Assembly (NCBI GenBank): GCA_030598425.1
Contig: JAUVPY010000008.1
Span: 1-16,212 of the forward strand
Origin: Anaerolineae bacterium
Lineage (GTDB): Bacteria; Chloroflexota; Anaerolineae; 4572-78; NAK82
Reading direction: 5' to 3'
Length of the DNA stretch: 16,212 nt
This document shows, one piece after another, positions 1 through 16,212 of the stretch. Made by a program: the position numbers and the translations under genes. How positions within the stretch are numbered: the first letter of the stretch is position 1; every line of letters begins with the position of its first letter. The notes beneath the pieces were generated by a model. It did no database searches and was not told the origin of the DNA. It worked only from the letters and a program-made list of their open reading frames with translations.

Positions 1-619
1 GGCTGTCGCGTTGTTCAAGCGCCCTCTCCCAGTACCCTCCCGCCTTTTCGCGGTCTATCTGCTGTTCGGCCAGCTCGGCCAACGCTTCAGCCGATCTTTC
101 TTGGAGCTGGCTGATCTCTCCTTCTGCCTCTTCGAGCCTCCTGATCTCTTCCCCCAGATCGGTCACAGACCGCAAGCCAACTCCTTGTTGGTACGCTTCC
201 AGCAATGCCTCTTTCCTGGCTGTAAGTGCCTCTCCCTCTTGCTCGTGGCTGCGCCGATATTCTTTGTCGAGGCGCTCACTTAGTTCCAGCTTACCCTGGA
301 CAGTGTGCAACTCTTCTTCGTATTCTTTTTGCAGACCTTCTACAAACCCTGGGGTCAGCCGGGAGGCAACCGGCCGGATCTCAGCCTGAATGGTATCCAG
401 TATGTAGCTGATCGCCTCTGCCTCTTGTTTCAAATCCTCGTAGGATCTAAAGTCGGCTCCGGTACGGGTGGCTGGGATGCAAGACTCAAGCTGGCGCTTG
501 ATGTCCTCCTGAACGGACTCTATCGAGATTTGCCTGGGCATCCTGACGCCCAGGTCCTTGGCTAACTCGATAAGACGCAGGTATTGGGCGAGCGGAAGTC
601 GGTTGGGCTGCCCGATCAT
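1..619 (-). CDS. Coiled-coil protein, C-terminus beyond window edge
   Basis: This open frame starts at an ATG at 619-617 and stays open for 206 codons to the left edge, so it is the N-terminal part of a longer protein. Its ATG overlaps the TGA of the kinase-like gene (ATGA). A good Shine-Dalgarno (GAAGGAG) lies 7 nt upstream inside the kinase gene, so translation is probably coupled. The first ~110 residues look helical and mixed (start MIGQPNRLPL). From about residue 110 the composition is strongly Glu/Lys/Arg/Gln-rich with leucine spacing typical of a coiled coil, for example EEIRRLEEAEGEISQLQER near residue 165. No signal peptide or membrane segment is visible in this part, so it is probably cytoplasmic. 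I recognise no family. As the last visible gene of the tubulin/vWA/kinase run, it is likely a structural or scaffold partner (inference). Confidence 0.85.
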   Translation of the reverse strand, partial: MIGQPNRLPLAQYLRLIELAKDLGVRMPRQISIESVQEDIKRQLESCIPATRTGADFRSYEDLKQEAEAISYILDTIQAEIRPVASRLTPGFVEGLQKEYEEELHTVQGKLELSERLDKEYRRSHEQEGEALTARKEALLEAYQQGVGLRSVTDLGEEIRRLEEAEGEISQLQERSAEALAELAEQQIDREKAGGYWERALEQRDS

Positions 620-2748
620 GCCACGTCTCCTTCAGCCATACTCCTCTGCTCCTCTTCCAGCCTTGCCTTGAGAGTGACCAAAGCCGGCCCGCTTTGCAGA
701 ACGCCTTCCAACTCATCTATCACTTTGGCCGCACGCCGCTTCAAGTAGCTATTACCTCGAGCCTTGTCGGCAGCCTCAAGCGCTGCCAGCACTTGAAAGA
801 CGTCATCGGAGCCAGCACTCTGCTCCAGCAATTGGTCCGCCTGAATCAAATCCAAGACTCTTTTCCACTCGACTTTGACTTGAAGACGCTTCTTTCCAGC
901 CATTGCATCAACTTCCGCTAGCAGGTTCTGGGCAGAACCAGGCTCCCTACGCGTGGTGAAATCGAAATCCCGGTCAGTGGCTTCTAGTATCCATTTGGCT
1001 TGCTGGAATTTGCCCCGGTCTGCCAGCTCAGCAGCTTCGGCCAAAACATCATCGGCCTTCCGGCACACGTCAAGTTGCTGATCCAGGCTCTTCAGGGAGT
1101 CTTGGGACCAGAGGGCTCCGGCTTCCTCAAGTAAAGGCTGATAGGATAGTTGTCCTTGTAGCGCACGCACTGCGTCTGAGGATGCGTATACTTCTTCCAG
1201 TCGCCCACGGGCCAGATTGGCCGCCAGGTTTAGCATGTGGTTCCGCAGCTCCGCCTCAATCAGCAAGGACAGAATCCCTCCCCACTGGCTATATTGGGGC
1301 AAGAAGGCATTGTTCAATAAGTCGATAACGGCGGTAGCCGGAGCCGGCTCAAGCGCCGACAGGTCTTCGACGCCAGCCCGAATGCACTCTTGAGCCTCAA
1401 TCCGTTCACCACCATGCAGAGACTCTCTGGCTTGGTGGATCTTGGCTTCAATGTCTGGATTCTCCTGATTGGGCGACACGACGCGGGGGAGCGGTTGCCA
1501 GAATAGATCGAGTGCCTCCTCCCACCTCTCTCCCTCAATAGCTTCGATGGCTTCGCTCCACGGTCCGACCACTTCTTCTCGAAAGACATGCTGGGCCTCG
1601 GTCGATAGGCTGCCACTGAACTCGGCCAATATCTTCCACCTCTGGGCGCGGAGCTGCCACTCCGGATCATCGCCATATGCCTCGGCGCCTCTGGTCAGAG
1701 GCCGCCTGATGTTCGAGTCGGCCAGGGTTTCTCCGCGTCTGATCGCCTCTGTGATTTGCCTGACCAGCATGCTGGCTATGTCTATCTCGCTTAGGAGCGC
1801 GTCAACCTCGTCTTCGTGCCTACGCCAACGGGGAGGATCGACCAATCGAAGGGTATCGAGACACTTCAGAGCCTTGTCGTATGCCTTGGCACGGCGGGCC
1901 TGTTCAAAGGTTCGTTCCAGTTCCGCCGGGGTTTGATTCCAAAACGCCCCCAACTCGCGCCAATCACCCAGCAACTCCACGATTCCGCGATAGCGTCGTT
2001 GTGCGACCCGGCTGAGCCCTCGGCTCAGTATTTGCCGGGCACCGTAGCTCAGTTCTGACCAGCGTCGATGATGTTCCGGTCTACGGGTGCCCAGCCTTAC
2101 GTCGGGAAGCGAATGGCCGCCCAACAACAATCTGTACCAGAACTGGGTGAAGAGCAGAAGGTCAAATTCAGCCAGCGAGGGGGTCAGGCTGGCGACCCCG
2201 CCCCAGTCAACCACAACCAGGCGCCAGTCATCTCCGCTAGTATCGCTGAGCAAAGGGCGATCGTTGCCGGTTAAGGTGGTCTGTTCTACCAACAACAGGT
2301 CGCCCAGCTTACGGTCGGGCGCCGCGAAGTCAACATCGTGCAGGGCGCTAAGAAGCTCCCCGTAGCGGGTTGCCCAGTAGACAGCCTCTTTCTCTGGTGA
2401 ATGGCCTTCCGGGCGGTCCCGGGCGAAGTCGGCCAGGGAACGCACAGAAGCCAGATACTCCATGACCAGGTAAGGTCTCTCGGCTTCGAGATTCGAAGCG
2501 TAGAGCTCTGGGACAGCGCCTGGAATCATATCCCACAATAGGGACAGAACCTCGGCCTCTTTTTCGAAGACCTGTCTCTGATCTGAACCGAGCGCCATCT
2601 TGACGGCCACCCTACGGCCCGCTTGGCCCTCAGGAGTGACCTGCTCTCCTAGAAATAGTTGCGAGGTGGAGCCATGGTCGATGGGGTTGGCAGAGAGGAT
2701 CTTGAATTGCCCACCCCCCTGACCGGAGAGAAGGGTCTCGTCTGTCAT
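616..2748 (-). CDS. Protein-kinase-like protein with long helical C-terminal region (710 aa)
   Basis: Residues ~16-260 resemble a Ser/Thr protein kinase fold. There is a poorly conserved glycine loop (DHGSTSQLFLG, 24-34), a VAVK lysine at K50 and a candidate helix-C glutamate at E64 or E66. A hinge-like LVMEYL follows at 94-99. The catalytic loop is PDRKLGDLLL, with D145 and K147 in the expected places but Asp150 where Asn is usual. The DFG motif reads DWG (D181). The essential Asp and Lys residues are therefore present, and activity is plausible but not certain. Residues ~270-710 are helical and TPR-like with motifs such as GERWEEALDLFWQ (406-418), and end in a charged helix. There is no membrane segment, so it is probably cytoplasmic. 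It begins 13 bp after the tubulin-like gene with only a weak GAG-type ribosome site, and overlaps the next gene by ATGA. The likely targets are products of the same operon (inference). A pseudokinase is the main alternative. Confidence 0.85.
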   Translation of the reverse strand: MTDETLLSGQGGGQFKILSANPIDHGSTSQLFLGEQVTPEGQAGRRVAVKMALGSDQRQVFEKEAEVLSLLWDMIPGAVPELYASNLEAERPYLVMEYLASVRSLADFARDRPEGHSPEKEAVYWATRYGELLSALHDVDFAAPDRKLGDLLLVEQTTLTGNDRPLLSDTSGDDWRLVVVDWGGVASLTPSLAEFDLLLFTQFWYRLLLGGHSLPDVRLGTRRPEHHRRWSELSYGARQILSRGLSRVAQRRYRGIVELLGDWRELGAFWNQTPAELERTFEQARRAKAYDKALKCLDTLRLVDPPRWRRHEDEVDALLSEIDIASMLVRQITEAIRRGETLADSNIRRPLTRGAEAYGDDPEWQLRAQRWKILAEFSGSLSTEAQHVFREEVVGPWSEAIEAIEGERWEEALDLFWQPLPRVVSPNQENPDIEAKIHQARESLHGGERIEAQECIRAGVEDLSALEPAPATAVIDLLNNAFLPQYSQWGGILSLLIEAELRNHMLNLAANLARGRLEEVYASSDAVRALQGQLSYQPLLEEAGALWSQDSLKSLDQQLDVCRKADDVLAEAAELADRGKFQQAKWILEATDRDFDFTTRREPGSAQNLLAEVDAMAGKKRLQVKVEWKRVLDLIQADQLLEQSAGSDDVFQVLAALEAADKARGNSYLKRRAAKVIDELEGVLQSGPALVTLKARLEEEQRSMAEGDVA
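627..633 (-). promoter_or_regulatory. Shine-Dalgarno of the left-edge coiled-coil gene
   Basis: GAAGGAG on the minus strand lies 7 nt before the ATG at 619, inside the last codons of the kinase-like gene. With the ATGA stop/start overlap it fixes the start of the downstream gene and suggests translational coupling. Confidence 0.65.
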
Positions 2749-2761
2749 AAGTGTATCTCAC

Positions 2762-5700
2762 TCAAACATACTGCTTGAGCAACCCGGCGCCTGTATCATA
2801 TCTCTCTTGGGCCCAGTCTTTTGAGACCAAATACATGACTGAATACAGATCAAATTCTTCGCTTGCCGCAGGATTAGTCCGCAGCTCCTCGCCCAGCCTC
2901 TTGAGTTGCACGCCGATTTTGTCGTTGACCCTGCGCTGGATGACATCCTTGGCCAAAAGCAAATCGGTCACTGTCTCCCTCATGGCATCATCGGGCAACT
3001 TGGGCAGGAGATTTGTCTGCCGTTCATCCAGCGTCACAGGTCTCTCCTCGTCCGCCATTGCCTTTTCGATCACACCTTTTAGGGCTTTTTCCACCGCCCG
3101 GCGGCAACGGGCATAATCGATGCTCTTGGCCTGATGCACAATATCGTTTTCAAGATATCCAAACGTATGTAGCGCGTCCAGCAGCTTTTCGTGCTGCTCT
3201 CCGGTTTCTGGTCTGGTCAGATGAAACAATTCTGGCGGCGTTGCCGAATCAAATGTTCCTTTGGGTGGTTCTTCTGGAAGATCAACGACCCAGCCAATTC
3301 TGGTGCGGTCCGTCTCGTCGGGCGTGGTGACTTTGATCAGGTCGGTGATGTAACAAAAACAGAACAATTTCAGACGATCGAGATCTTCCAGCATCTTGAC
3401 CACGCTCTCCCTGAAGGGGCCCATTGTTTCCCGATCCTGATGCAGTTCTTCCACGGCCCGTTGCTCAAATCGGGCAGCGTGCACTTCGGCTGGGAAGATG
3501 TGCAGCATCTCGCGGGGCAGCTCGATATCGCCTTCCAACTTGCCCTGCCACCCCAGATAAGATGGCAGAGCATCGAGATGCTCCTGGATCATATCGATAT
3601 CGTATAGATCTTTGGTATAAATGAAGGATATCTTGAAGGGATCGTCACATTGGATCAGTCTGGCGAAGCTTTGCGACTCATCTTCATAATTCGGCTCTGC
3701 ACCGCTTTCGCCAGCCGCCGTCAACAATGCCTGCCGCAAGTAGGATTCCTCGTCTGTTCCGGGGACATACCGGGCCCTCAGATAATTCCCGGGCCACCCC
3801 CGGTCAGAAACGCCGGCCACAGAAAGTAACACCCCTCCTTTTTGGACAAATTCCTGTCCCAGGCTCTCTTGCTGTCCAGGTTTGAATTCGACGAAGTACT
3901 TCAGGATAGACTCGTTTTCCCAAATGCCCGAGAACGTTTGGCGTGACCCGCCGAGAAAAACGTCTCGATTCTTCTCCCTCAACTGCGTCTTGCGGTCATC
4001 GTCCTCAAATTCCCTGGGAACCACCATGTCCTGTCCGGCCACTCGAAAACCCATGGAGAACTCGTCCTTCTCTGGGTCCACAGGGATCTCCCACCTGACG
4101 CTTTCCAGGAATTCATTCAAGCGCTCCGGGCCGCCATATTTCTCAAAAAGACTCTTTTCGTAAGCTTCGTCGCTGATGACGCTTTGAACTCTGGTATCAT
4201 CCCCGGCCTTCTTGATAATCCCCTCCACTTCGTGGAGACGTTTGGCCACCTGAGCAAAGAGGCTATTCGGCCCCTGAGCGACCGTGTTGGCCCAATTCTT
4301 GTGTTCCTGGGCAGCTTGCTTCACGTAATGTTGCATGGCATTGACTGTGTTACGCACCGATTGGCGGATGGCATCCGCCATCAGGAAATGCATCAGCTCT
4401 TGTTCGGCCTTGATATATTCATGTTGGACTTTGCTGGATTCGCCAGGCCAGCGGCTACGGCATCTATCATGCATGCGTGTTTTCTTCGCCTCGGCGGTTG
4501 CGTACAGATTCCTGCGTCGATTTTGCAGGCGTGTGCTGTTTTCGGTACTGGCCAGTCGCTGGCTATAACTATCCAACACCCTGGCCAACTCATCCAGAAA
4601 AACAGTGACGTAGCCCAGCTTGCCCCCCAGCGCCAGGGGTTTGTCGTAAACAGAGGCCCCATTCAATATGTTCTCACACTCGATGGGGAGCGTTTTGCGC
4701 ATCGTCTCGAGCTGGATGGTGTGATATTCCTGCAGCAAGCCCCTTAGCTCCCCCCCTGCTCGCCGCCGGCTCGAGTCTATCTCACCTCCCAGGAACGCGT
4801 TCTTACGAGCGCTGATGGCCCGCTCAATACGTTGAGCGCCGTCGCACGCGTGTTCCCTGCCCACCTTATCCGACGGCGGGGCGATCAGCTCAAGGTCCCT
4901 GTTGACCTGAGCTTCCACTCGCTGGCGTACTGGCGCGAAGAGCTCGTGGCCAGGGGTGTAAACATTCAACCACTCTTGAAACCCAAGCCCGATCAAGGCC
5001 GCCTCCGCCTTGCCTTCGTCGCCCGCCGCCCGGCGTGCTCGAGTCTCAATGCGCCTGATCTCACCAAAGAGCCGGGTCGCCCCACCAGTAAGATCAGGAT
5101 CGCGGCGGCTGGTGACATCTGCCTTGTTCAGAAACTCAAAAGCGTGTTCCGCGCCCGTACTTCCCGCCTCCCGGTTAGTCTCGCTGCTCAATGCCAGCGG
5201 AACATCCAGCGCCCCTTCCTTGGTGACCCTGCCCGGCGCGGGGGGAAAGAGAATGCTCAGCGCCTGATAGGCCAACTGGTGAGCGAATCTATCGATAATC
5301 TCGTGGACTGGCAATATCTTGGTGTAAGTGCCCAGGCTTGAATAGAAATGGCCGCCTACTCCGCGCGCCATGATGTTGTTTTTGTGCTGGTCAAAAACCT
5401 GGCCGCCGACTTGATCCAGATGAGCTGCGATGCATTCTCCCAAGGTGGGTGCCACCCCATAGCGCAACTCGACGCGATCGAGGCTGTTGTTGCGACGTTT
5501 GCCGTCAACGGCATACAGCATATCAAACAGACGGCTCTTATAAACGCCTTGCAGCGGATCATCATCCGGCCCCGAGATATCGGACGTATAATGCATCGGG
5601 TAACCAGGCTCGCGGAAGTCGCTCATGAAGCGATCCATTTCGCGCAGGGCAGCATACCCCTGGCCCTTCATAGACGGCGACACCGTCAAACCTGGTTCTC

Positions 5701-6334
5701 CACTGAAGGCAGTCGGCAACACCACGAAACCACGCGTGAAAACGGGTGTACTGCCGGCCAATTTGCGCACCAGGTAGGCAATGTCAACGAACATGCCCGA
5801 TCCAGTCCCGCCCGCCACTGAGGCGACGAGGAAGACCTGCACCGCTCGTCCTTGAGCGTAGCCAGCTACTTTGTTGATCGCGTTTCTTAGAGCTTTGCGT
5901 ATCTTGGAGTTATCGCCGTGGCCGAGATCGTAGAAAACGGCCAGACGTCCCATCTGACGCATCTGGGCAGCGCCGTCCTCAATGTTAAACAAATGATCAG
6001 GCAGATTGTTCAACATCCAGCCATCCTGTAGCCAGGCGGCGATATAGTCTTGATCTCCATTCCTGATGGTCTCTACAAGTGGTTTGGACCATCCGCCGAT
6101 GTGCACATACTCGCCCAGCCTGGCCTGAAGCCTGACCGGAACTGAATGGCCACTTCTGGTAACTACCCGCAGATCGTGCCACCAACTCTCCGCTTTGGAG
6201 GTCGTGTCAAGGGCGAGCAGCGTTATCTCCGGCGGGACAACCCCATCATTGTTGCGCATGAGGTCCTGTTTTGCGAATGTAAGGGCCTTTACCCCGGTTC
6301 CCCCCAGACCGATCACCAGTGCTGGAACTGCCAC
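2762..6334 (-). CDS. Tubulin/FtsZ-like GTPase, Tubulin_2 type, with large helical C-terminus (1190 aa)
   Basis: The N-terminus has a nucleotide-binding start (VIGLGGTGVKAL, residues 7-18) and the tubulin signature loop GGTGSG at 175-180 after a hydrophobic strand (VFLVASVA). YAALREMDRFM (227-237) and YSSLGTYTKILP (331-342) match my recollection of the tubulin-like family PF13809. The tubulin-like domain probably covers about residues 1-370. The remaining ~800 residues are mostly charged helices of unknown function, so the protein is about three times the length of FtsZ. No signal peptide or membrane segment is seen. Such proteins probably bind GTP and may polymerise in the cytoplasm. The start is a GTG preceded by a near-perfect AAGGAGGAA 6 nt upstream, so the start is firm. 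It follows the vWA gene after 136 bp that hold a nested hairpin, and precedes the kinase-like gene by 13 bp. An FtsZ-like family paired with vWA proteins has been proposed to remodel membranes. Confidence 0.92.
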   Translation of the reverse strand: MAVPALVIGLGGTGVKALTFAKQDLMRNNDGVVPPEITLLALDTTSKAESWWHDLRVVTRSGHSVPVRLQARLGEYVHIGGWSKPLVETIRNGDQDYIAAWLQDGWMLNNLPDHLFNIEDGAAQMRQMGRLAVFYDLGHGDNSKIRKALRNAINKVAGYAQGRAVQVFLVASVAGGTGSGMFVDIAYLVRKLAGSTPVFTRGFVVLPTAFSGEPGLTVSPSMKGQGYAALREMDRFMSDFREPGYPMHYTSDISGPDDDPLQGVYKSRLFDMLYAVDGKRRNNSLDRVELRYGVAPTLGECIAAHLDQVGGQVFDQHKNNIMARGVGGHFYSSLGTYTKILPVHEIIDRFAHQLAYQALSILFPPAPGRVTKEGALDVPLALSSETNREAGSTGAEHAFEFLNKADVTSRRDPDLTGGATRLFGEIRRIETRARRAAGDEGKAEAALIGLGFQEWLNVYTPGHELFAPVRQRVEAQVNRDLELIAPPSDKVGREHACDGAQRIERAISARKNAFLGGEIDSSRRRAGGELRGLLQEYHTIQLETMRKTLPIECENILNGASVYDKPLALGGKLGYVTVFLDELARVLDSYSQRLASTENSTRLQNRRRNLYATAEAKKTRMHDRCRSRWPGESSKVQHEYIKAEQELMHFLMADAIRQSVRNTVNAMQHYVKQAAQEHKNWANTVAQGPNSLFAQVAKRLHEVEGIIKKAGDDTRVQSVISDEAYEKSLFEKYGGPERLNEFLESVRWEIPVDPEKDEFSMGFRVAGQDMVVPREFEDDDRKTQLREKNRDVFLGGSRQTFSGIWENESILKYFVEFKPGQQESLGQEFVQKGGVLLSVAGVSDRGWPGNYLRARYVPGTDEESYLRQALLTAAGESGAEPNYEDESQSFARLIQCDDPFKISFIYTKDLYDIDMIQEHLDALPSYLGWQGKLEGDIELPREMLHIFPAEVHAARFEQRAVEELHQDRETMGPFRESVVKMLEDLDRLKLFCFCYITDLIKVTTPDETDRTRIGWVVDLPEEPPKGTFDSATPPELFHLTRPETGEQHEKLLDALHTFGYLENDIVHQAKSIDYARCRRAVEKALKGVIEKAMADEERPVTLDERQTNLLPKLPDDAMRETVTDLLLAKDVIQRRVNDKIGVQLKRLGEELRTNPAASEEFDLYSVMYLVSKDWAQERYDTGAGLLKQYV

Positions 6335-6340
6335 GTTCTA

Positions 6341-6349
6341 TTCCTCCTT
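6341..6349 (-). promoter_or_regulatory. Strong Shine-Dalgarno of the tubulin-like gene
   Basis: AAGGAGGAA on the minus strand ends 6 nt before the GTG at 6334. It is one of the two strongest ribosome sites in the window and supports the non-ATG start of the tubulin-like gene. It lies just beyond the nested hairpin, so folding of that hairpin would leave it accessible. Confidence 0.85.
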
Positions 6350-6360
6350 AGCTACCAGGA

Positions 6361-6459
6361 CTCGTGCAAAGTCGCCTTGGCAAACCCGAGACCCGCATCC
6401 TTCGGCATGGCGGCCTCAGGCCGCACATCAGGATGCTAGGTTCTCGGACTTCGCACGAG
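6361..6459 (-). repeat. 99-nt nested imperfect palindrome between the vWA and tubulin-like genes
   Basis: Four nested stems can be read. The outer stem pairs 6361-6373 with 6447-6459 (CTCGTGC arms, 13 bp, one mismatch that becomes G-U in the minus-strand transcript). The next pairs 6387-6393 with 6439-6446 (one bulged base). The third pairs 6395-6401 with 6430-6436 (GCATCCT/AGGATGC, 7 bp perfect). The innermost pairs 6410-6415 with 6419-6424 around a 3-nt loop. No T-run follows on either strand, so it is not a standard intrinsic terminator. It fills the gap almost exactly, starting 11 nt after the vWA stop and ending 11 nt before the tubulin ribosome site. It may be a dispersed palindromic repeat (REP- or MITE-like) or an mRNA processing or stability element. 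I cannot tell which from one copy. Confidence 0.75.
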
Positions 6460-6470
6460 CGCTGCCCTTT

Positions 6471-9113
6471 CTACTCTAGGATTGGATTAACGTACTTGAT
6501 TTTGAAATCTCTGCCTGAGTCCCATTCGGTCTCGTGCATTATCGTGGTAGGTACGCCATCGACTGTGACTTCCACCGCATCGTCAGACAAGTATCTAACC
6601 TGGAGCTTCTTGATACCGGTGGACGAAGGCAAGTCGGAAAAGGTGTGTTGGTTGACATTTGGCGGCAGCGATTTGATGCCACCCGCTAATGGAATGTCGT
6701 TTTCATCCAGAATCTCCAGATGGCCTACCAAGTGCGGCCCACTGCGTTTGGCCCTGGCGCGGTTGATGCGCGACACAACCAAGCCCAGCAGGACGAGGGC
6801 AACGACACCCCACACGGCCAGGGCGGGATAATTCTCAACCCGGGTGACGGTCGCCGAGGGGCTGGCGTCCGCCAGCGCAAAACCGTCCTGCAGGTCAACG
6901 TCCTCGGGCAGCGTGACGGTCCACTCGCCGGACCGGCCGAATCCATCCCCAGCGAAGCGAAGTACACCCGGTTCGGAGTCGATGGGCTGCAGCTCAACTG
7001 TCCGAGGCTGTCCCTTAGGGCCCTGAACTTCGACATTGATCGTTGGAGCCGCACCGCTGGCCCGCACCCCCTCCCAATCGACGGGTTCCCCGCTCTCCGC
7101 ATCGATCAGGGCTGCCTCTACTTCCAGAGGCACGGATTGCAAGAGCCAGCTACGTTTCACCTGTCGTGAGCCGTCCGTCGGTTGTGTTAGTACCAATTCC
7201 AGACCCTTGGTCAATCCCACATCAAAGGCCCGGGCGCCATCCCCTCTGGCGTCCAGGGGCACGCTCGTCTGCTCGCCAGTTGCTTCGTTAATCACGAACA
7301 ACTCAAAATCTAAATCATAGGTGCCAGTTGATTCCGGCTTGTATTTTGCCGAGAATACGCCATCGCCATCCTCATCCGCCGCCTCAACGATCAGAGGGGT
7401 CGCAAAATCGGGATGGTTCAGCTCAAACTGGCCCGCGTAACGATAGCCATCCGCCAGCGTTTGGAAACCGCCCAAATCCACCTGGTAGTTCAGGGGCGCT
7501 TCTTCTTTCTCCAACACTGCCTCAGGTGGTATGAACTCTCCCGTTAAGCGTTCGATCGTGAAATCACCGTCCAGGCTATGATCCAAGACCTCAAACTCTT
7601 CACCATCCGGCGCGCGCGCGGCGCCAATCAGACGGATTTGGAAGTTGTCGCCCGGTTCGGTGACCACAACCTGACCGCTGAAGGTCCCGGGATCCAAAGT
7701 CGTTTCCGCCACCTGCTGCCCCTCGCCGGCAATCACAGACGCGCTCGAGTACAGAGCATACCGGCCGTTCTCATAGCGGGGCAGCACGTTACCATCCAGA
7801 TCAAGCATGGCGATCTGAATGTCTACGGGAACGCCTTCCGGATACCGTTCGCCCGCGGGTTTAACCAGTTGGGGGGCGAAAAGTAAACTGCGCGTTCCGA
7901 TGCGCACCGTGTCATACACATTCTGTGACGCGGGAATGGTGGCCTCTGCCCGCCATATGCCGGGGTCAGGTTGGGAGACGACCACTTTGTCGATCAGTCT
8001 GCCCAGATCGTAGTAACAGAGTCCATTCCGGCACTCACCATCCGCCAGATTCAGATCGAGGGGAGCCCCTTGCGGGTCGAAAATCTCAACGATGTCCGAC
8101 GGGGTGGTTCTGACGATGTAAAAGGTGAGTGACTGTAGATAGGGACGTACGGGAAAATCGCCCAGTTGAGACAGCCACTCGGTAACAACCCCTGGCCCCT
8201 CGGGCGGCAAAGGCAACTTGGATAGGGCCGTGTTTACGACTTCGCCCATAAACTGCGCGACTTCATTTTGACTCTCTACAAGGCGCGCCTCGCCGTTATG
8301 CCGGACAGCCAGGTTCTCCCAGAATGGCCCGTTGTTTGTCCAGTAATCGGACGCCTCGTCGGCCATACCCACCACGTAAAAGTAATAATCCTCTCCGTCC
8401 AGATTGGCGTCTAATTCACTTTCCACCTGCGGCAACATGTCACCAGGGCCGAAACACTGCTCCTCGGCAAACGGATTATCTTGCGGGCCTCTGGGATAAC
8501 ACACCGCCGATTGACCGTCAGTTAACAACACGATAACCTTCAGCCGTCTTGACGGGTCGCTCGCCTGCATTTGGTCGAGCAATTCGGTTGATCTCCGGAC
8601 CGCTCCCAAGTGGTCGGTGTTTCCCAGGTTTTGCGCTTCCCTCTCGGCCTGATAAAGCGTCATGCGTTGCAGAAGCTGCTCGCGCTGAACTGCCCAGGCC
8701 TCGAGGTCTGATTCTATGGTTGTGGGGGGCAACACGTCGTTGATGGCGATGTTCTCATACTCGATGTCCTCACCGGCCCTGTATTGTGCTATGTCAACAT
8801 CCTGGCCAAACTCGACGATGCCGATTCGGGCCGTGGAGGCCACGTAGATCTCCGACATTTGATCGCCCAAAAAGTCGATAATGGCGAACTTGGGTCCCTC
8901 GAAGCGAAAGCCTTGTGGGTCGTTCTGCCTTTCTATGCTGCTATTGCAGGCTGCACCGCACATGCTTCCTGATTGGTCGATCAGAAATACGAAGTCGACG
9001 CCGGTATAGGGTTCTGGCTCTTGGGCCAGAGCCGGTCCTGCCGGAACAGTAAGTGAGACGGCCAACATTACGGCCATAACCAAGGCAGTCAAGATCCTGC
9101 TATTTCTGCCCAC
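6471..9113 (-). CDS. Exported vWA-domain protein with C-terminal membrane anchor and cytoplasmic tail (880 aa)
   Basis: A Sec signal peptide is clear: a basic start, a hydrophobic core at ~8-27 and an ALA-QE cleavage site near 30/31. A vWA domain follows (~39-300) with a complete-looking MIDAS metal site: DQSGS at 46-50, a Thr at 166 (NTD) and an Asp at 199 (LLTDG). Residues ~310-760 are beta-rich and Ig-like in character, with no named domain recognised. A single hydrophobic segment (~763-781) is followed by basic residues (RINRARAKR), so an ~98-residue beta-rich tail should face the cytoplasm. Six cysteines (52, 56, 205, 220, 361, 366) lie in the exported part, two of them beside the MIDAS, and could form disulfides. 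The start is a GTG with a strong AAGGAGGTC site. It lies 20 bp after the metallophosphoesterase gene. Its likely role is metal-dependent ligand binding or complex assembly at the membrane surface, linked through the tail to the tubulin-like protein (inference). Confidence 0.92.
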   Translation of the reverse strand: MGRNSRILTALVMAVMLAVSLTVPAGPALAQEPEPYTGVDFVFLIDQSGSMCGAACNSSIERQNDPQGFRFEGPKFAIIDFLGDQMSEIYVASTARIGIVEFGQDVDIAQYRAGEDIEYENIAINDVLPPTTIESDLEAWAVQREQLLQRMTLYQAEREAQNLGNTDHLGAVRRSTELLDQMQASDPSRRLKVIVLLTDGQSAVCYPRGPQDNPFAEEQCFGPGDMLPQVESELDANLDGEDYYFYVVGMADEASDYWTNNGPFWENLAVRHNGEARLVESQNEVAQFMGEVVNTALSKLPLPPEGPGVVTEWLSQLGDFPVRPYLQSLTFYIVRTTPSDIVEIFDPQGAPLDLNLADGECRNGLCYYDLGRLIDKVVVSQPDPGIWRAEATIPASQNVYDTVRIGTRSLLFAPQLVKPAGERYPEGVPVDIQIAMLDLDGNVLPRYENGRYALYSSASVIAGEGQQVAETTLDPGTFSGQVVVTEPGDNFQIRLIGAARAPDGEEFEVLDHSLDGDFTIERLTGEFIPPEAVLEKEEAPLNYQVDLGGFQTLADGYRYAGQFELNHPDFATPLIVEAADEDGDGVFSAKYKPESTGTYDLDFELFVINEATGEQTSVPLDARGDGARAFDVGLTKGLELVLTQPTDGSRQVKRSWLLQSVPLEVEAALIDAESGEPVDWEGVRASGAAPTINVEVQGPKGQPRTVELQPIDSEPGVLRFAGDGFGRSGEWTVTLPEDVDLQDGFALADASPSATVTRVENYPALAVWGVVALVLLGLVVSRINRARAKRSGPHLVGHLEILDENDIPLAGGIKSLPPNVNQHTFSDLPSSTGIKKLQVRYLSDDAVEVTVDGVPTTIMHETEWDSGRDFKIKYVNPILE

Positions 9114-9117
9114 GGAA

Positions 9118-9126
9118 GACCTCCTT
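9118..9126 (-). promoter_or_regulatory. Strong Shine-Dalgarno of the vWA gene
   Basis: AAGGAGGTC on the minus strand lies 4 nt before the GTG at 9113 (AAGGAGG to GTG is 6 nt). It confirms the GTG start, which also places the signal peptide at the true N-terminus. Confidence 0.85.
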
Positions 9127-9133
9127 GTGGTTC

Positions 9134-10144
9134 TTATCTTCGAAATTCCCCTGTTTCAAGACAACTTGCCAGCCTTTCAGCCCACGCTTCTTCCCGCTCA
9201 ATTGTCTTGTCATCTGCCTCACTGTTCACCATCTTGAATAGGTCATCGTATGCAGCTCTATAATCATAATCGAGGCGGCAGAATTGAACCGTATTCTCAT
9301 CGCAGTCAAGTATGGCCATGGCTGCCGCCGGGCAACCATCACGTGGCTGCCCTACACTGCCCGGGTTCATATAAATCGGTTCCCCACCCGGGCTGAGGAG
9401 TATTGGTTCGATCGCATTCCAACGACGGCAAGATCCATCTCCCAAGCATCGGGGGCATTGACGCCAGGGCTGACGCTCTCTGGTGGCTGACTCGGCCAAA
9501 GGCTGCCGCGTCCACACCCCCTGCCCCGACCTGTGCCACAGCATGGCCCGATGGCTGTGCCCGCCGATCATAATTCTGGGCTTGACCTCAGAACTAGCGG
9601 CCTGCGCCAGTGAGAATTGGTAGCTTCTCTCGAGCCGATCCGTATCTTCCCACGTATCATCGCGAACATAACTATCGTACCCGAAGACGTTTGGGCTTTT
9701 CTCCCGGTTGTATTGATCTTCCCCCTCGACCGAGACACCGTGCATGAGCCACAAACCGCCACACACCTCCGATGCTTTGAAGGTTGGATGCCCGTTAATC
9801 ATTTCTCTAAATTGGTCAAATAGCGCCTTGTTTTTATCCAGAGCGGCCTGGCGCTTAAGCCACGCCAGGCTCCATCTGGCCTCAGCCGAGGCCAGCGGTA
9901 GCTGCAATCTGAGAGATGCCTCGCCGGCGGCTATCAAGTCGTGGTTGCCAACCACCAGATCGTGCGCTCGAGAATTAGAGTTGATCTCCACGATTTGGCC
10001 TATCGTCTCGAAGGGCATCCCAAGATAACCGACGATATCCCCCAAGATCAGATAGCCATCTACGTTTTGGGTTTCGGCGTGTTCAACGACGCGCCGCAGG
10101 GCGAAGTAATTGCTGTGTATATCTGATAGTATGGCTAGGCGCAT
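9134..10144 (-). CDS. Calcineurin-type metallophosphoesterase with Cys-rich insert (336 aa)
   Basis: All family motifs are visible. With the ATG at 10144 they are D8-x-H10 (LSDIHSN), GD at 35-36, GNHD at 66-69 (N67, H68), H135 and GHSH at 195-198, forming the two-metal site. NPGSVGQPRDG (260-270) is typical of the YfcE/MJ0936-like Metallophos_2 group of phosphodiesterases or phosphatases. Between GHSH and NPGS lies an unusual insert with CPRCLGDGSC (C230, C233, C239), resembling a zinc knuckle. The ~45 C-terminal residues are charged and helical. No signal peptide is seen, so it is probably cytoplasmic. The ATG gives the classical MRLAILSDIH start 13 bp after the previous stop. The nearest GGAGGA (10169-10164) is 19 nt away, rather far. 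A CTG at 10153 in the same frame would be better spaced. An open frame reaching to 10228 would overlap the upstream gene and add residues unlike the family. The substrate is unknown. It may reverse the kinase or cleave a nucleotide signal (inference). Confidence 0.9.
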   Translation of the reverse strand: MRLAILSDIHSNYFALRRVVEHAETQNVDGYLILGDIVGYLGMPFETIGQIVEINSNSRAHDLVVGNHDLIAAGEASLRLQLPLASAEARWSLAWLKRQAALDKNKALFDQFREMINGHPTFKASEVCGGLWLMHGVSVEGEDQYNREKSPNVFGYDSYVRDDTWEDTDRLERSYQFSLAQAASSEVKPRIMIGGHSHRAMLWHRSGQGVWTRQPLAESATRERQPWRQCPRCLGDGSCRRWNAIEPILLSPGGEPIYMNPGSVGQPRDGCPAAAMAILDCDENTVQFCRLDYDYRAAYDDLFKMVNSEADDKTIEREEAWAERLASCLETGEFRR

Positions 10145-10157
10145 ATGCGGCAGTGGT

Positions 10158-13100
10158 CTAGGGTCCTCCGAATCGCTCTCGCATGGCATAAGGATAGGGA
10201 TAATCTGGACAAATCCTGCGGCACTCATTGTAAGCCAGTTGGCCGGACATGGCTATTTTGTCCACTTCTGAACTCCTGAACATCTGCAATTTCATAGATC
10301 TGAGTTTATCCAGGCTTTGTTGGGCCGTGATATAGTGGGTCGTAAACTGCCTGAACAGGTTTGCGATTCTTTGTACCTCGTCCTTCGCTTCATCCAGCCA
10401 GCCCTCTACGTCAGTTCGAATCATCTCTATGTGAGCCAATTCCAAGATGACGCGCGGATTGGGCGATCCCTCTGGTAATACGTCAGGAAATCTGGCAGCC
10501 ATCGTCAGGAAGTAATGCCACGAACCAACGCTGAAGAAATGCTCATCGCCCGGGCCGACCAGGTTCTCAGCGATTTCTTTTGTGCGTTTGACAAACGGGC
10601 CCGGGTTGTTGTTAGCACTCGCTTCGTTCCTCAGTCTTCTAAGCTGCTCGTGCAACTTGGCCTCTTCCTTAGGCTGGTTAAAGGCGGCTTGCCAACAGCG
10701 TATGATGGCTTCTTCCCATCTGCCTTCGCGCAGACTGTAATATACCTCGCTCTGGACCGTGTCTTTCTCTTCCGAGTAAGATCGGTCCAGGTCATCCACG
10801 CAGATCTCCTGTACCATACGGCGATAAGTTTCGACGGCATCCTGGATATCACGCCGTTGATCGGAGCGCATTTTATCAACAACCTCGTTTATCTCTGAGT
10901 GCGTCAGCAAACGCTCACGGTCGGGCACACCCCACAGCCCCTGAGTGTCTTTCCAGCGCCGTAGGCGTCGGGTATGCGTGGAGATCAACTGGCTTACCTC
11001 GACCACCGCCTTTTCTCTTTCGAGCAGGACCTCTTCCAGGGAGGCCAATGTAACAGGCGCAGAGGCTTTCAGAATACTTCTCAGATCATCTTCAAAGCGA
11101 TAGGTGTCCCAACCTTCCACAGCCCTTATCTCGTCCATCAACTCGATGGCAGCCGCGTACAGGTCTTGGTCCACCAAGCGCTGCAACTCCCCAAATAGCG
11201 CCTTGAGTCTGCGCTGATCCTCCCGACTCTTCATCACCTCGTTGAAGAAGTACTTGACCTGCTCGTGCTGCCGGAGACGTCTCAGCGCCCCATATTCACC
11301 CGTACCTGTCTGTAGCGCATTCACCCGTCTTTCCAGACTATCCCAGCGCGTGTCGTTGGGTTCCCTGGCCTCGCGTACCTCTCGCCAGTCGGACTGAAGC
11401 GCGGCCAGTTCTGAGCGCAGGCGGCTGAGCTCGCGCTTGTGGGCGCTAAGCGCCTCAATCTGCTCTCGCAACGAGACACTTTTTTCTCGTCTCTCTTCGG
11501 CGTCGCCACCTCGTTCATAGTAAGTCTCCAATATCCTGGAGACTTCCCTGGCGCGTGCCATCAAGCTGTCAATTCGTTTGATTTGCTGGTTTAACCAATC
11601 CTGTGCATCGCTCGCCCGGCCACTGGTGTCCCTGGCTTCCTGCTCCAACTCTCTTTGCAGATCCAGGCTATACACCCCCAACTCGTCCAGGGCATACCTG
11701 GCTTCCTGAGATTGAGGCGCAAACAGCCAAACCCGGATCATCTTATTGCAAGTGTCTACCCGGTCGGCCCCTCGATCTCTCACATCCTTGGCCTGTTCCA
11801 GCAGCGCACTTGCAAAGTCTCTTTTTTGGATCTCAAACCAGTCTTTGAGCTCGAAGTAATTGGGTGCACCTGGCTCCAGGGGGGCGTCTGTCAGCATGTG
11901 GCTGGCTGATTTAAGGCTGTCCAGGCCGGCGTCAGGGTCAAACTGCTGGATAACTGATCTTTTCCAATCGTGAATCTTGACTTGCTCTTGAACCCTACCC
12001 TCCAGCATCTCTGCGTCCGGGCCGCCCGCCTTGCCCCGTCTCTGCAGGAGCTTCAGATGGTCGGCGATGCCCTGGGCCTTGAGGGGCTCCTCGCGTCGCA
12101 GATAAAGATCAGCTAATAGCTCCAGAACTTCAACGTCATTTGGGTAACGCACCCGCATCTGTTCGAGCATGAGCACTCGCTTGTGCTCGTCGCTCTCCTG
12201 GCCCAGCTCGCTAAAATCGTCCTCTCTCTGTAACTCAGTCAGTTCTGCCATAACGTAGCCATAGGCAGCTGATGCTTCGGGTGCCACCTGTTCCGCTACG
12301 CCCAGCCAATAACTTTTCTGAGATGGCTCGGCCCGGGCCATACCCAGGTAACAAGAAGCTCTCAACTCCTGGAAACGCTGAACAACACTCTCGCCGGCCA
12401 GTTCCTGGAGTGTGTCGAGGTCATTCAGGATGGTGCTTAACTCGTTTGATTCATATCTGGTTCGAACCCGGTCCAGATCAGCCGCTTCGTGCGTCAGCTT
12501 CTCGGCGAGGTAGATCTTCCATTCGACCTCCATCTGGTACTTGCGTTGAATCAGAGTGGGGTCGTTGGGGTAAAGGCCAAATAGAACATCCAACAAGCTG
12601 TCGGCAGCTTCGAAATCTTGGGCCTCAATTTTCTCCTGCAACGGATCGAGGCGTATTACAATCTTCTCATAGTCGCGCTTTTTCTGGTTCAACCACTTAC
12701 TCAGCGAATTGACCCTGCGCATCAACTGCTGATCTGGTTCATTGGCCTCTTGCAACAATGTGCCTATGGAATTGATTGTCTCAATTTCGACCTGCAACCC
12801 CTCACTCAGCAGGCCGTATTCCTTGTCGGTCTCAAGCGCAGCCAACTTGGCTCGAGCCTGGTATCGCTTGTGGATTCGTTCGAGCTCGTCGTCCTTCAGA
12901 TGGGCGAATTCCTCAACGGCTATTTCAACAGAAGCCAGATTTTGGAGCAGCTTGTCTTCGTCCTCCATCTCGGCGAGCCAAACCTTCTTTTGAGCACGCA
13001 GATTGAGGTGGGCGTTGATGAGTTGTCGCGCGTCGTGCACGGCGGAATAAAGAGCAGCGCGCTGGAGCTTGATCAATTTGTATTCAAGTTCCTCCAGTTC

Positions 13101-14606
13101 TTCGTCGGCCTCGTGGGGCGCAACTCTCAGCTTGGCCTGGATCCCGGGCAGCTTCTGATCGATTTCGGCGTCCAGATCACGGAAATCGCCCAGATCCTTG
13201 ACGATACGCCCCAGTTCATCGTAGTACTGACCCAACGGACCATAGCCGGCCAGCAGCGACTGCAGGTCGGACAGAGACGTTATGCGGTTGTCCCAACTCT
13301 CGGGCCCTCTGTCATCAAGAATGCCGATTTGCTGATACTCAGGCAACACCTCTTGCTCGATAACCACCTGCAACTGCCTGCCGATCTCTAATTTGGCCTC
13401 TCCCAGGCCAGGTATTTCGTCGTCCATGGCCTCGGCTTTCAGCACCGCTCGCCAGGCCTCGATGGCGCTTGCCTCGGTACGCGCTTTTTCCAGCGCATCT
13501 CTCGCTTTTTCGCGCCGATTTAGGCGAAGCTGGTAGTCCTGTAGCTTGTGCTCCAGTCGTCTCCTGTGGGTTTCCCGTAGAACATCAGTGTATTGCGCCC
13601 TGAACTCTTTGAGGGTGTCGATAGCGCCTTTGGGATTGGTATCCGCCTGCTCGTCGGCCAGGTGGATGTATTGGTTGGTCTTGGTGTCGGCGTATTTGAA
13701 CTCTATGTCACTCAGCCGGCTCAAGGCATCGTCAATGGCTATGGGTTCTCCTTCAGTCAAGGTGAGGATCTCCTCACCTCCCTCGACTCCGAATACAAGA
13801 TCGCCTTCGTCGTCGAGAACGGCCTGGTAAGGGACAACCTTTTCTTCGCCCGCTCGCTTGGCTTGTTCCCATTGCCTCCTGACTCGATCAAACTGGGCGA
13901 ACCGGGCGGAGGTCACCAGGCCGTTGCTCCAGGTTTCTTTACGCCTCTCATAGAGATTCCGGGCGTCTATGGACAGATCCCGGGCCGCTTGCTCAGTGGC
14001 GTGATTGTCCGCCAGCCGCTTGGCCTCTTCGTAGGCGCGACGCATTTTGCCAATCGCGCTTCCCTCGTTGTTGACCGGGTCTGTGTCGTAGAGGGCCGTG
14101 GCCTCATCCTGTAGCTGGGTTACTTTTTGCCTGGTCTCTTGATATTCCTGCTCGAACCTGCCCGGGACCTCCACCACCGACTTCTGCTTGCGCCAGCCTG
14201 TAACCAGAGTCTCTCTGTCCGGGAAACACAGCCGGTATTCCTCAACCCATTGGTTAAATTCCGGGGACAGTCCATCTTCGCCGTTGGCAAGCATCGACTC
14301 AATCATTCCCCGGCGCTGCTCTCCCCAGAAAGTCAGTGCATCCAGTGCCTGCCTCTCAAGTTCCCTGGCTCTCTCACCAATCACCGTCAGCTCGAACGTC
14401 TCGCTCATTTCGACGGCGTCCGTGATCTTCCTTCTGGCTTGTAGCAGTTCAGCCGGGTTGCGCAGCTGTACGTCTGCAGCCTGACCCTCGTAATTCTGAA
14501 GATGAACCTCTGTTTCGTCGATCAGGGCTCGGATGGTTGGCACGGCCTGCCTTTTATCCCCAGGCATGACCGCGTCGATTATTCGTTGAGCAATGTTGCG
14601 TTCCAT
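10158..14606 (-). CDS. Giant helical-repeat/coiled-coil protein, function unknown (1482 aa)
   Basis: This is the first gene of the run. I recognise no enzymatic domain. The sequence is almost wholly predicted-helical, rich in Glu, Arg, Leu and Gln, with no signal peptide or membrane segment, so it is probably a soluble cytoplasmic scaffold. Stretches look TPR-like: EAQDFEAADSLLDVLFGLYP (661-680), YPNDVEVLELLADLYLRREE (821-840) and REGRWEEAIIRCWQAAF (1293-1309). The region ~985-1075 is more like a continuous coiled coil. A small non-helical island rich in Gly and acidic residues occurs near 255-290 (DDEGDLVFGVEGGEEI). The last ~120 residues contain aromatic and proline-rich patches (CPDYPYPYAMRERFGGP). 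The ATG has a stop codon in frame just upstream and only a distant GAGG, so initiation may be weak. The TAG stop lies 13 bp before the metallophosphoesterase ATG. The shared RWEEA motif with the kinase C-terminus suggests the two helical proteins are related or interact (inference). Confidence 0.88.
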   Translation of the reverse strand: MERNIAQRIIDAVMPGDKRQAVPTIRALIDETEVHLQNYEGQAADVQLRNPAELLQARRKITDAVEMSETFELTVIGERARELERQALDALTFWGEQRRGMIESMLANGEDGLSPEFNQWVEEYRLCFPDRETLVTGWRKQKSVVEVPGRFEQEYQETRQKVTQLQDEATALYDTDPVNNEGSAIGKMRRAYEEAKRLADNHATEQAARDLSIDARNLYERRKETWSNGLVTSARFAQFDRVRRQWEQAKRAGEEKVVPYQAVLDDEGDLVFGVEGGEEILTLTEGEPIAIDDALSRLSDIEFKYADTKTNQYIHLADEQADTNPKGAIDTLKEFRAQYTDVLRETHRRRLEHKLQDYQLRLNRREKARDALEKARTEASAIEAWRAVLKAEAMDDEIPGLGEAKLEIGRQLQVVIEQEVLPEYQQIGILDDRGPESWDNRITSLSDLQSLLAGYGPLGQYYDELGRIVKDLGDFRDLDAEIDQKLPGIQAKLRVAPHEADEELEELEYKLIKLQRAALYSAVHDARQLINAHLNLRAQKKVWLAEMEDEDKLLQNLASVEIAVEEFAHLKDDELERIHKRYQARAKLAALETDKEYGLLSEGLQVEIETINSIGTLLQEANEPDQQLMRRVNSLSKWLNQKKRDYEKIVIRLDPLQEKIEAQDFEAADSLLDVLFGLYPNDPTLIQRKYQMEVEWKIYLAEKLTHEAADLDRVRTRYESNELSTILNDLDTLQELAGESVVQRFQELRASCYLGMARAEPSQKSYWLGVAEQVAPEASAAYGYVMAELTELQREDDFSELGQESDEHKRVLMLEQMRVRYPNDVEVLELLADLYLRREEPLKAQGIADHLKLLQRRGKAGGPDAEMLEGRVQEQVKIHDWKRSVIQQFDPDAGLDSLKSASHMLTDAPLEPGAPNYFELKDWFEIQKRDFASALLEQAKDVRDRGADRVDTCNKMIRVWLFAPQSQEARYALDELGVYSLDLQRELEQEARDTSGRASDAQDWLNQQIKRIDSLMARAREVSRILETYYERGGDAEERREKSVSLREQIEALSAHKRELSRLRSELAALQSDWREVREAREPNDTRWDSLERRVNALQTGTGEYGALRRLRQHEQVKYFFNEVMKSREDQRRLKALFGELQRLVDQDLYAAAIELMDEIRAVEGWDTYRFEDDLRSILKASAPVTLASLEEVLLEREKAVVEVSQLISTHTRRLRRWKDTQGLWGVPDRERLLTHSEINEVVDKMRSDQRRDIQDAVETYRRMVQEICVDDLDRSYSEEKDTVQSEVYYSLREGRWEEAIIRCWQAAFNQPKEEAKLHEQLRRLRNEASANNNPGPFVKRTKEIAENLVGPGDEHFFSVGSWHYFLTMAARFPDVLPEGSPNPRVILELAHIEMIRTDVEGWLDEAKDEVQRIANLFRQFTTHYITAQQSLDKLRSMKLQMFRSSEVDKIAMSGQLAYNECRRICPDYPYPYAMRERFGGP

Positions 14607-14709: not shown

Positions 14710-14764
14710 TGACCGGCACTTCTCGATTTGAATCTGCCCAATTCAAATCGAGAAGTGCCGGTCA
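14710..14764. repeat. Perfect inverted repeat, 24-bp arms, 7-nt loop
   Basis: The left arm 14710-14733 (TGACCGGCACTTCTCGATTT and four more bases) is the exact reverse complement of 14741-14764, with a 7-nt spacer CTGCCCA. Arms this long without a mismatch imply a recent origin or strong selection. No T-run follows on either side, so it is not a normal intrinsic terminator. The ends (AAGTGCCGGTCACC) resemble dispersed palindromes of the REP type that are spread by RAYT transposases, but no transposase is in the window. It lies ~100 bp upstream of the giant helical gene and could alternatively be a protein-binding or transcript-folding site controlling the operon. Confidence 0.85.
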
Positions 14765-15136: not shown

Positions 15137-16212
15137 TCAGAGGCCGCTCAGATAAGTCTCTATCCTGTCCAAACCCTCGGCGATGTTCTCCAGGGAGTTG
15201 GCATAGGAGAATCTAAGATATCCCTCACCATTCTCCCCAAAGTCGATGCCGGGTGTCACACCCACGTGCGCCTTCTCCAGGATGTCGAAAGCCAGTTGGT
15301 ATGAATCGTTTGAGAAACGTCTGGCATTGGCGAAGACGTAAAATGCCCCCGTCGGCTCAACGGTGATGCCAAAACCTATCTCCCTCAGGCGTTGGACTAT
15401 AAACTCCCTGCGTTCGTTGTAGATGCGCTTCATGCGCGCCACGTCCTCGCCCGCTTGCTCCAGGGCGGCCACCCCGGCCATCTGGGCCACGGAACTGGCA
15501 CAGATGAAAAAGTTCTGCTGGATTTTCTGGATGGGCCGGATAAAGGGCTGGGGCGCGATCAGATAGCCAAGCCGGAGCCCCGTCATCGCGTACAGCTTTG
15601 AAAAGCCATTCAGGACAAAGGCGTGGTCTGTGAATTCTAAAATGGAACGTTCCCGGCCCTCATACACCAGGCCGTGATAGATCTCGTCGGAAACGACGTA
15701 GGGCGAGAACTCGGCGATGGCCCGTATGCGGTTTGCGGACAGCAGATTGCCGGTCGGATTTGACGGGGAGTTTATGAATATGGCCTTGGTCTTGTCGGTA
15801 ATCTTTTCCTGGATGTCCTCAGGCCGGTATTGAAAGCCGTCTTCTTCGCAGACCGGCACGGCCACCGGGACCCCCTCCAGGAAATTGATAAAGTTGGAGT
15901 AGCAGGCATAGCGTGGGTCGGAGACGATCACCTCGTCCCCGGCTTCGAGCAAGGCCGAAAACAGCAAAAACATGGCCGGCGAAGTCCCGGAGGTGATCAC
16001 AATCTGGTCGGGTTCCACCGCTACGTTGTACGTTCTGCGGTAGTACTCGCCAATGGCTTCTCTGAGTTCCAGCACCCCCAGGCTGTGGGTGTAGTGGGTG
16101 TGCCCTTCGTCGAGGGCCCGACAGATAGCCTCTTTGACGCACTCAGGTGTGTCAAAATCGGGCTCACCGACTTCCAGATGGATGACGTCGACCCCGTCGT
16201 GTTCCAGAGCCC
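15137..16212 (-). CDS. Class I/II PLP-dependent aminotransferase, N-terminus beyond window edge
   Basis: The frame is open to the right edge. It contains 358 full codons plus the stop, and family members are ~390 aa, so about 30 N-terminal residues are missing. A GTG at 16075 is in frame but cannot be the start, because upstream residues read IHLEVGEPDFDTP, a conserved N-terminal motif of the family. Other motifs are SPSNPTGN (cofactor-binding Asn), SDEIYHGL (Asp and Tyr contacting PLP) and GFSKLYAMTGLRLGY, whose Lys (codon 15598-15596) forms the Schiff base. YLRFSYANS near the C-terminus carries the carboxylate-binding Arg. The enzyme should transfer an amino group between an amino acid and a 2-oxo acid in the cytoplasm. 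Aspartate- or aromatic-type specificity cannot be decided. It is 530 bp from the next gene and probably unrelated to the tubulin-containing run. Confidence 0.93.
   Translation of the reverse strand, partial: ALEHDGVDVIHLEVGEPDFDTPECVKEAICRALDEGHTHYTHSLGVLELREAIGEYYRRTYNVAVEPDQIVITSGTSPAMFLLFSALLEAGDEVIVSDPRYACYSNFINFLEGVPVAVPVCEEDGFQYRPEDIQEKITDKTKAIFINSPSNPTGNLLSANRIRAIAEFSPYVVSDEIYHGLVYEGRERSILEFTDHAFVLNGFSKLYAMTGLRLGYLIAPQPFIRPIQKIQQNFFICASSVAQMAGVAALEQAGEDVARMKRIYNERREFIVQRLREIGFGITVEPTGAFYVFANARRFSNDSYQLAFDILEKAHVGVTPGIDFGENGEGYLRFSYANSLENIAEGLDRIETYLSGL

Follow-up and report, generated by a model that had tools for sequence, protein, structure and literature searches.

A conserved gene set around a tubulin-like GTPase in Chloroflexota as a probable envelope-linked machine

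Six genes arranged around a tubulin-like GTPase on a single contig of an Anaerolineae bacterium raise the question of whether they belong together and, if so, what kind of apparatus they could encode. The contig (JAUVPY010000008.1; G000:C39 in our numbering) was analyzed in its entirety as a stretch of 16,212 nucleotides, hereafter the window, and belongs to a metagenome-assembled genome (MAG) of 2.96 Mb in 482 contigs that is 63% complete. All six open reading frames (ORFs) lie on the minus strand and encode, in reading direction, a giant helical protein, a calcineurin-like metallophosphoesterase (MPE), a membrane protein with a vWA domain, the tubulin-like GTPase (TubL), a kinase-like protein and the beginning of another helical protein, with which the run is open at the contig end. 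Their positions and spacings, as given in a preliminary description made from the sequence alone, were confirmed from the ORF coordinates, with intergenic gaps of 13, 20, 136 and 13 bp and a 4-bp ATGA overlap. The first gap of 13 bp, between giant and MPE, holds because the MPE start is taken at 10144; the ORF is listed at 9134-10228, and the internal ATG at 10144 (MRLAILSDIHS) is the likelier start. Since the genes recur together in other bacteria, the set is probably one machine, which on sequence evidence would connect extracellular signals with an intracellular scaffold.

This recurrence bears directly on the preliminary description, which was to fall if homologs of TubL never stood beside the kinase, the phosphoesterase or the giant; on the contrary, these genes recur together in Chloroflexota, Acidobacteriota and Aminicenantes. 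A TubL match was obtained in 12 of the 100 genomes of the relatives search and a Tubulin_2 match in 46 of 400 genomes of the phylum (the window's own counted in both), and the distribution of the family is patchy. From a scan of named genomes, the best 79 of 343 relatives were kept as loci with flanks of up to 10 kb. Some records are present twice (L088/G031, L105/G036, L104/G347, L153/G002 and L110/G176, as well as L099/G053 with a contig 100 bases longer), and the vWA, kinase and MPE profiles contained rows from the window and its relatives, which match by construction. The flanks of these best 79 relatives contain a vWA gene in 50 cases, a kinase in 31, at least two tubulin matches in 25, an MPE in 14 (13 strong; L139, with 3.5e-6 in a 525-aa protein, was left out of the strong count) and a giant in 10, every giant locus also having an MPE.

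Recurrence in the same order, which the preliminary description had proposed as a check, was found in several Chloroflexota. The order giant, MPE, vWA, TubL, second tubulin, kinase is present in L088/G031, L101, L104/G347, L112 and L129, with one gene between giant and MPE in L112, and likewise in L105/G036, where three genes stand ahead of the kinase; both tubulins of G347 are read as a single ORF across a run of N, which is probably an artefact. The part from MPE to kinase, again with a second tubulin, occurs in this order in L097 and L113. A rotated order (vWA, TubL, second tubulin, kinase, large helical protein, MPE) was observed in G403 and G176, and in fragments in the frame-broken assembly of G053, where vWA, TubL, kinase and MPE run in one direction. 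In Sulfidibacter corallicola (Acidobacteriota, L090) and an Aminicenantes bin (L121), TubL is followed by the kinase, a third gene, a giant-like gene, the MPE and then another Tubulin_2 gene; no vWA gene was detected within their flanks of up to 10 kb. The gene set is conserved and not assembled by chance, with five genes recurring in several Chloroflexota and four in other phyla.

The association of the MPE with TubL was further examined genome-wide for 35 of the 79 loci, selected by us, with TubL searched in 25 of these. An MPE (E <= 1e-17) is located on the contig of TubL or of the second tubulin in 10 of the 25 genomes, at distances of about 3 to 22 kb (L090, L094, L098 through its second tubulin, L100, L110, L111, L115, L117, L119 and L121; L090 and L119 were themselves MPE profile rows). 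Among the 15 genomes without a linked MPE, the TubL contig is shorter than 18 kb in 11 and longer in L091, L109, L120 and L125, and the other 10 of the 35, with distant and short TubL, gave no MPE match anywhere at E <= 1e-17. Given that MPE-type genes occur in 24 of 25 genomes at E <= 1e-15, their presence alone says little. The four operon MPEs among them reach 266-324 bits, with no other copy above 162, all four being profile rows. In a tree of 36 TubL rows, most loci with an upstream MPE fall into one weakly supported group (80), and the pair from Acidobacteriota and Aminicenantes is located elsewhere; a confinement of the MPE to one TubL clade (12 of 15 rows, support 80) did not hold up against the rotated operons seen in wider flanks.

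TubL itself (2762..6334, minus strand; 1190 aa, GTG start) matches PF13809 (Tubulin_2) with 140.3 bits at a cut-off of 27 (E 1.2e-40, Pfam) and is assigned by its sequence to the Tubulin_2 family, the FtsZl1 of Makarova and Koonin (2010). An AlphaFold2 model based on a 32-row alignment (pLDDT 88.2, pTM 0.76) shows a core with a predicted tubulin fold and conserved T1/T4 nucleotide-binding loops, and the T4 motif GGTG is kept in 32 of 32 alignment rows. The best 50 rows from Foldseek all belong to FtsZ, CetZ, TubZ or tubulin, as chains or in complexes, at probability 1.00, with a best E of 1.1e-3 (none <= 0.001), about 350-380 aligned columns and TM-scores by target of 0.29-0.49. Large helical insertions stand between and after the tubulin elements, including long helices at 529-712. 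Two residues, D307 (32 of 32 rows) and N320 (31 of 32), lie near the expected T7/H8 place, and a diverged T7/H8 at D307 is possible and compatible with the modelled secondary structure. Canonical FtsZ, which TubL resembles in its predicted core fold and T1/T4 loops, is encoded separately in 12 of 14 genomes examined; the two without it (the window MAG and G006) are incomplete. As side observations, the TubL sequences of L094, from a record titled Acidithiobacillus ferrivorans, and of L093 (Cyanobacteria) are nested among those of Chloroflexota in the tree, either because the bins are mislabelled or because transfer was recent. Frameshifts also break TubL in L113 (4375-8036) and several genes of the set in L099/G053, perhaps through sequencing error or decay.

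The second tubulin of relatives supplies a physical link between vWA and tubulin, as both are often part of one transmembrane chain that consists of a signal peptide, sometimes a CAP domain, a vWA domain, two transmembrane segments, a PD40 beta-propeller, another transmembrane segment and a Tubulin_2 domain. By profiles, vWA and tubulin share a single ORF in 12 of the 79 loci. Pfam recovers vWA, PD40 and Tubulin_2 together in all eight propeller chains tested (L091, L097, L101, L105, L112, L113, L119 and L129), and vWA with Tubulin_2 and no propeller in the chains of L103 and L131. When 28 chains picked by us were scored with a propeller profile from which CxxCH had been cut out, 14 contained the propeller, each with exactly one CxxCH haem-c motif, whereas the other 14 chains had none. 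A tubulin domain is seen in 13 of the 14 propeller chains, the sequence of L106 ending before it, and L117 among the other 14 has no tubulin match. The motif was found in none of the 275 other proteins of at least 500 aa at the named loci. On the topology inferred from hydropathy CxxCH is external, and haem c is attached on the outer side of the membrane; the relatives also supply a candidate signal, an external haem c predicted from CxxCH. Genes of the cytochrome-c assembly family occur in all 14 genomes that encode CxxCH chains, yet they are also present in 132 of 150 genomes of the class, and their co-occurrence is therefore weak support for haem c in the second tubulin; none were found in the window's 63%-complete MAG.

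The remaining partners retain key residues of their families. The vWA protein (6471..9113, minus strand; 880 aa, GTG start) has, by hydropathy, a signal peptide, an outside part with the vWA domain and ectodomain, one transmembrane segment at about residue 761 and a cytoplasmic tail. Its match to VWA_2 (E 2.3e-5, 25.4 bits) is slightly below the Pfam cut-off of 27, and the MIDAS motif DxSxS is kept in 13 of 13 aligned relatives, the window included. At L120, a distant TubL locus, tandem FHA domains are encoded directly upstream of the vWA gene (3-638); FHA domains are phosphothreonine readers. The kinase-like protein (616..2748, minus strand; 710 aa) has a protein-kinase-like N-terminal domain and a helical C-terminal region. 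Pfam matches are weak here (Fructosamin_kin at 2.3e-5 and a sub-threshold protein-kinase match), and the product is protein-kinase-like by its conserved residues: the VAIK-type Lys, alpha-C Glu, catalytic-loop Asp and DFG-type Asp are present in 21 of 21 aligned sequences including the window, and the catalytic-loop Lys in 20 of 21, with the HRD His absent from all 21. The MPE (9134..10144, minus strand) matches Metallophos_2 (3.9e-14, Pfam), its closest solved chain is 3rqz (8e-16), and the metal-ligand motifs D-x-H, GD, GNH, H and H-x-H are invariant in 13 of 13 operon MPEs.

The giant (10158..14606, minus strand; 1482 aa) contains no Pfam domain above cut-off, and blastp alone did not link it to the giants of G036, G031 and G347. 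A profile built from six relatives without the window giant scores the latter with 61.6 bits (E 2.2e-18), against 3.1 bits for the best of 392 scored shuffles (400 made) and -41.9 for the reversed sequence, and hhalign aligns it at 99.8% (E 2e-28, 1293 columns), with five other operon-type proteins as controls at <=0.35%; the shuffles and hhalign controls rule out a match by composition alone. Among 1216 proteins, some of them included twice, the same profile retrieves at E <= 10 four to five proteins besides its seeds; the non-seed matches lie at or one gene from the MPE in L129, L106, L121, L112 and the window, in addition to another gene of the G036/L105 locus. Seven of the 400 phylum genomes gave a match at E <= 0.001, two of them strong (window and G347, both rows of the profile used) and five marginal (about 1e-4), with no further strong copy. 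The giant is shown by these profile comparisons to be a member of a helical family conserved at these loci. A model of residues 1-1000 is all-helical and of medium quality (pLDDT 70, pTM 0.35), and Foldseek matches it, with very low TM-scores, to TPR-type solenoids such as Ski3, Ctr9, IFT-A and APC, from which we infer a TPR-like solenoid scaffold.

What, then, could such a set do? We propose that the genes encode one envelope-linked apparatus around the tubulin-like GTPase. The external vWA domain, together with the propeller in relatives, would bind to some ligand, surface or redox partner, and the signal would be passed through the membrane to the tail of the vWA protein and to the tethered tubulin domain, which in turn would recruit or nucleate TubL as a submembrane assembly. 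The solenoid giant may scaffold or cross-link this assembly, and the kinase and MPE would set the phosphorylation state that controls it; candidate outputs are membrane remodelling, cell shape and filament integrity. To an envelope-tethered tubulin-like scaffold under the control of kinase and MPE we give an even chance. Of the membrane-linked tubulin machine with its own phosphorylation control that the preliminary description had suggested, the conserved set, the membrane link, the tubulin-fold core and the conserved kinase and MPE residues hold up, while filament formation and membrane remodelling by the set are what we infer. It can be speculated further that the tubulin is haem-gated: a receptor with an external vWA domain and c-type-cytochrome propeller would detect a ligand, a gas or the redox state, and its cytoplasmic tubulin-like domain would template TubL assembly, tuned by kinase and MPE on the TPR-like scaffold. 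The window has TubL, vWA, scaffold, kinase and MPE and may have the receptor past the contig end; we hold this extended scheme to be rather unlikely.

Part of this arrangement is already known. FtsZl1 was predicted to work with membrane vWA proteins in membrane remodelling, with protein kinases listed as frequent partners (Makarova and Koonin, 2010; PMC2875224). The window agrees with that system in a Tubulin_2 protein with an N-terminal GTPase part and long helical region, a membrane or secreted vWA partner and a protein kinase partner. The kinase, which the preliminary description had counted as a departure from the 2010 set, is thus no departure, whereas the MPE and the giant TPR-like protein apparently stand as regular additional members, to which the window's relatives add the vWA-propeller-tubulin chain with CxxCH. 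In the text consulted, which did not include the unnamed partner families in Additional file 6 of the 2010 article, neither the MPE nor the giant nor such a chain is mentioned. Genes for OmpA-family proteins and P-loop GTPases, which are frequent and not universal FtsZl1 partners, gave no Pfam match among the seven window proteins, the run being cut by the contig end. In the GAP1-N2/DO-GTPase systems, tubulins with helical C-terminal parts are similarly encoded next to extracellular vWA proteins, in some cases together with a kinase and a phosphatase, and the window differs in having the MPE and giant instead of GAP1/DO-GTPase (Kaur et al., 2020; PMC7159879). How an external vWA protein and a cytoplasmic tubulin could cooperate was a question raised by a reviewer of the 2010 article (PMC2875224), and it becomes directly testable with the relatives' transmembrane chain and their conserved kinase/MPE pair and scaffold, also present in Longilinea arvoryzae KOME-1 (L119). 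Literature searches found no experimental study of any Tubulin_2 protein. In TerY-P type triads, a vWA protein, a kinase and a phosphatase are encoded together, the phosphatase being PP2C and not calcineurin-like; we know of no tubulin and no giant in them.

Several observations weigh against the proposed scaffold. The catalytic T7 motif of FtsZ, NxDxxD, occurs in 0 of 32 TubL rows in the region examined, and because of this FtsZ-type polymer-coupled hydrolysis may have been lost. Given this absence and the large helical insertions, TubL could be a non-polymerising GTP-dependent switch or hub, and the set a pathway for transmembrane signalling whose output would be the kinase and MPE, with no cytoskeleton; the authors of the 2010 article were themselves unable to place T6-H7 and left filament formation open. 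They also stated that the superfamily members characterised so far form filaments (PMC2875224), and D307 and N320 make a diverged T7 possible. We consider such a switch doubtful. The envelope-tethered scaffold must further contend with the window's lack of a second-tubulin gene, as the 13-bp gap between TubL and kinase is the site of this gene in most complete relatives. Given that the second tubulin of Longilinea arvoryzae stands downstream of the kinase, the window's copy may lie beyond the contig end; elsewhere in the MAG none was found, other matches being partial stretches, and the two of these that were examined, C462 and C79, are ordinary propeller proteins. The vWA tail, once considered the best-conserved part, shows no higher conservation than other regions of the protein (0.197 versus 0.275 in the vWA domain). 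The nearest relatives of the MPE presumably include nucleotide hydrolases besides phosphatases, and thus it need not oppose the kinase. It is also not universal, since a DO-GTPase2 gene (5915-7024) fills its position ahead of the vWA gene in L091 and an AAA+ ATPase gene (2927-3901) lies directly upstream of TubL in L089, as if this module were exchangeable. Similarly, the proteins in the giant slot of G403 and G176 have no detectable kinship with the giant by hhalign.

The DO-GTPase2 gene of L091 also speaks for a conflict or immunity system, in which the vWA protein would sense an invader or peptide, TubL and kinase would form a nucleotide-dependent assembly and the MPE would be a nucleotide-cleaving effector. 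Kaur et al. (2020) describe GTPase loci of the GAP1-N2 type in multicellular bacteria that contain tubulin and vWA genes and for which conflict systems are proposed, and predict calcineurin-type effectors in related GAP1-N1 loci (PMC7159879). The patchy distribution of the family fits such a role, as do weak PADLOC matches of the window kinase to PD-T4-6 (8e-8) and mad6 (4e-4), which perhaps reflect merely the kinase fold. Neither GAP1 nor DO-GTPase was found by Pfam among the window's genes, however, and in most loci seen the MPE stands alone as a conserved core gene rather than as an exchanged variable effector. When nine proteins encoded in the flanks of four loci were compared with PADLOC, only one matched, to HerA/mad8 ATPases, and nothing firm links the set to defence through flanking genes; we regard a conflict system as unlikely. 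On the G031 contig, the gene of the HerA/mad8-like ATPase (L053, 12390-15307) follows the kinase gene at a distance of about 10 kb. A chance neighbourhood of unrelated genes could appeal to the helical gene at 2-619, which has no detectable relative, and to the ordinary aminotransferase on the other side; it is contradicted by the fact that the remaining five genes also stand together in other families and classes, and four of them in other phyla, and we reject it as extremely improbable.

Further genes and elements stand at the two ends of the run. The helical protein at 2..619 (minus strand; 206 aa, beginning only) has no homolog among the 1216 compared proteins, and its correspondence with relatives is positional only; it was discarded as a conserved family after this empty homolog search. 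No Pfam match was above cut-off, and weak matches to a transposase model (1e-3) and JetC3 (1.5e-3) look like coiled-coil noise. Promoter and terminator scans gave no more sites than shuffled sequences. The aminotransferase (15137-16210, Pfam) is located about 530 bp from the giant. Between them, about 100 bp ahead of the giant start, is an inverted repeat (14711..14763, minus strand) with perfect 23-bp arms and a 7-nt loop, not followed by a T-run and without a second copy anywhere in the MAG. It is possibly a regulatory hairpin and a candidate element of the gene set; its predicted RNA fold reaches -50.2 kcal/mol (z -9.2), a value equally low in 0 of 200 shuffles.

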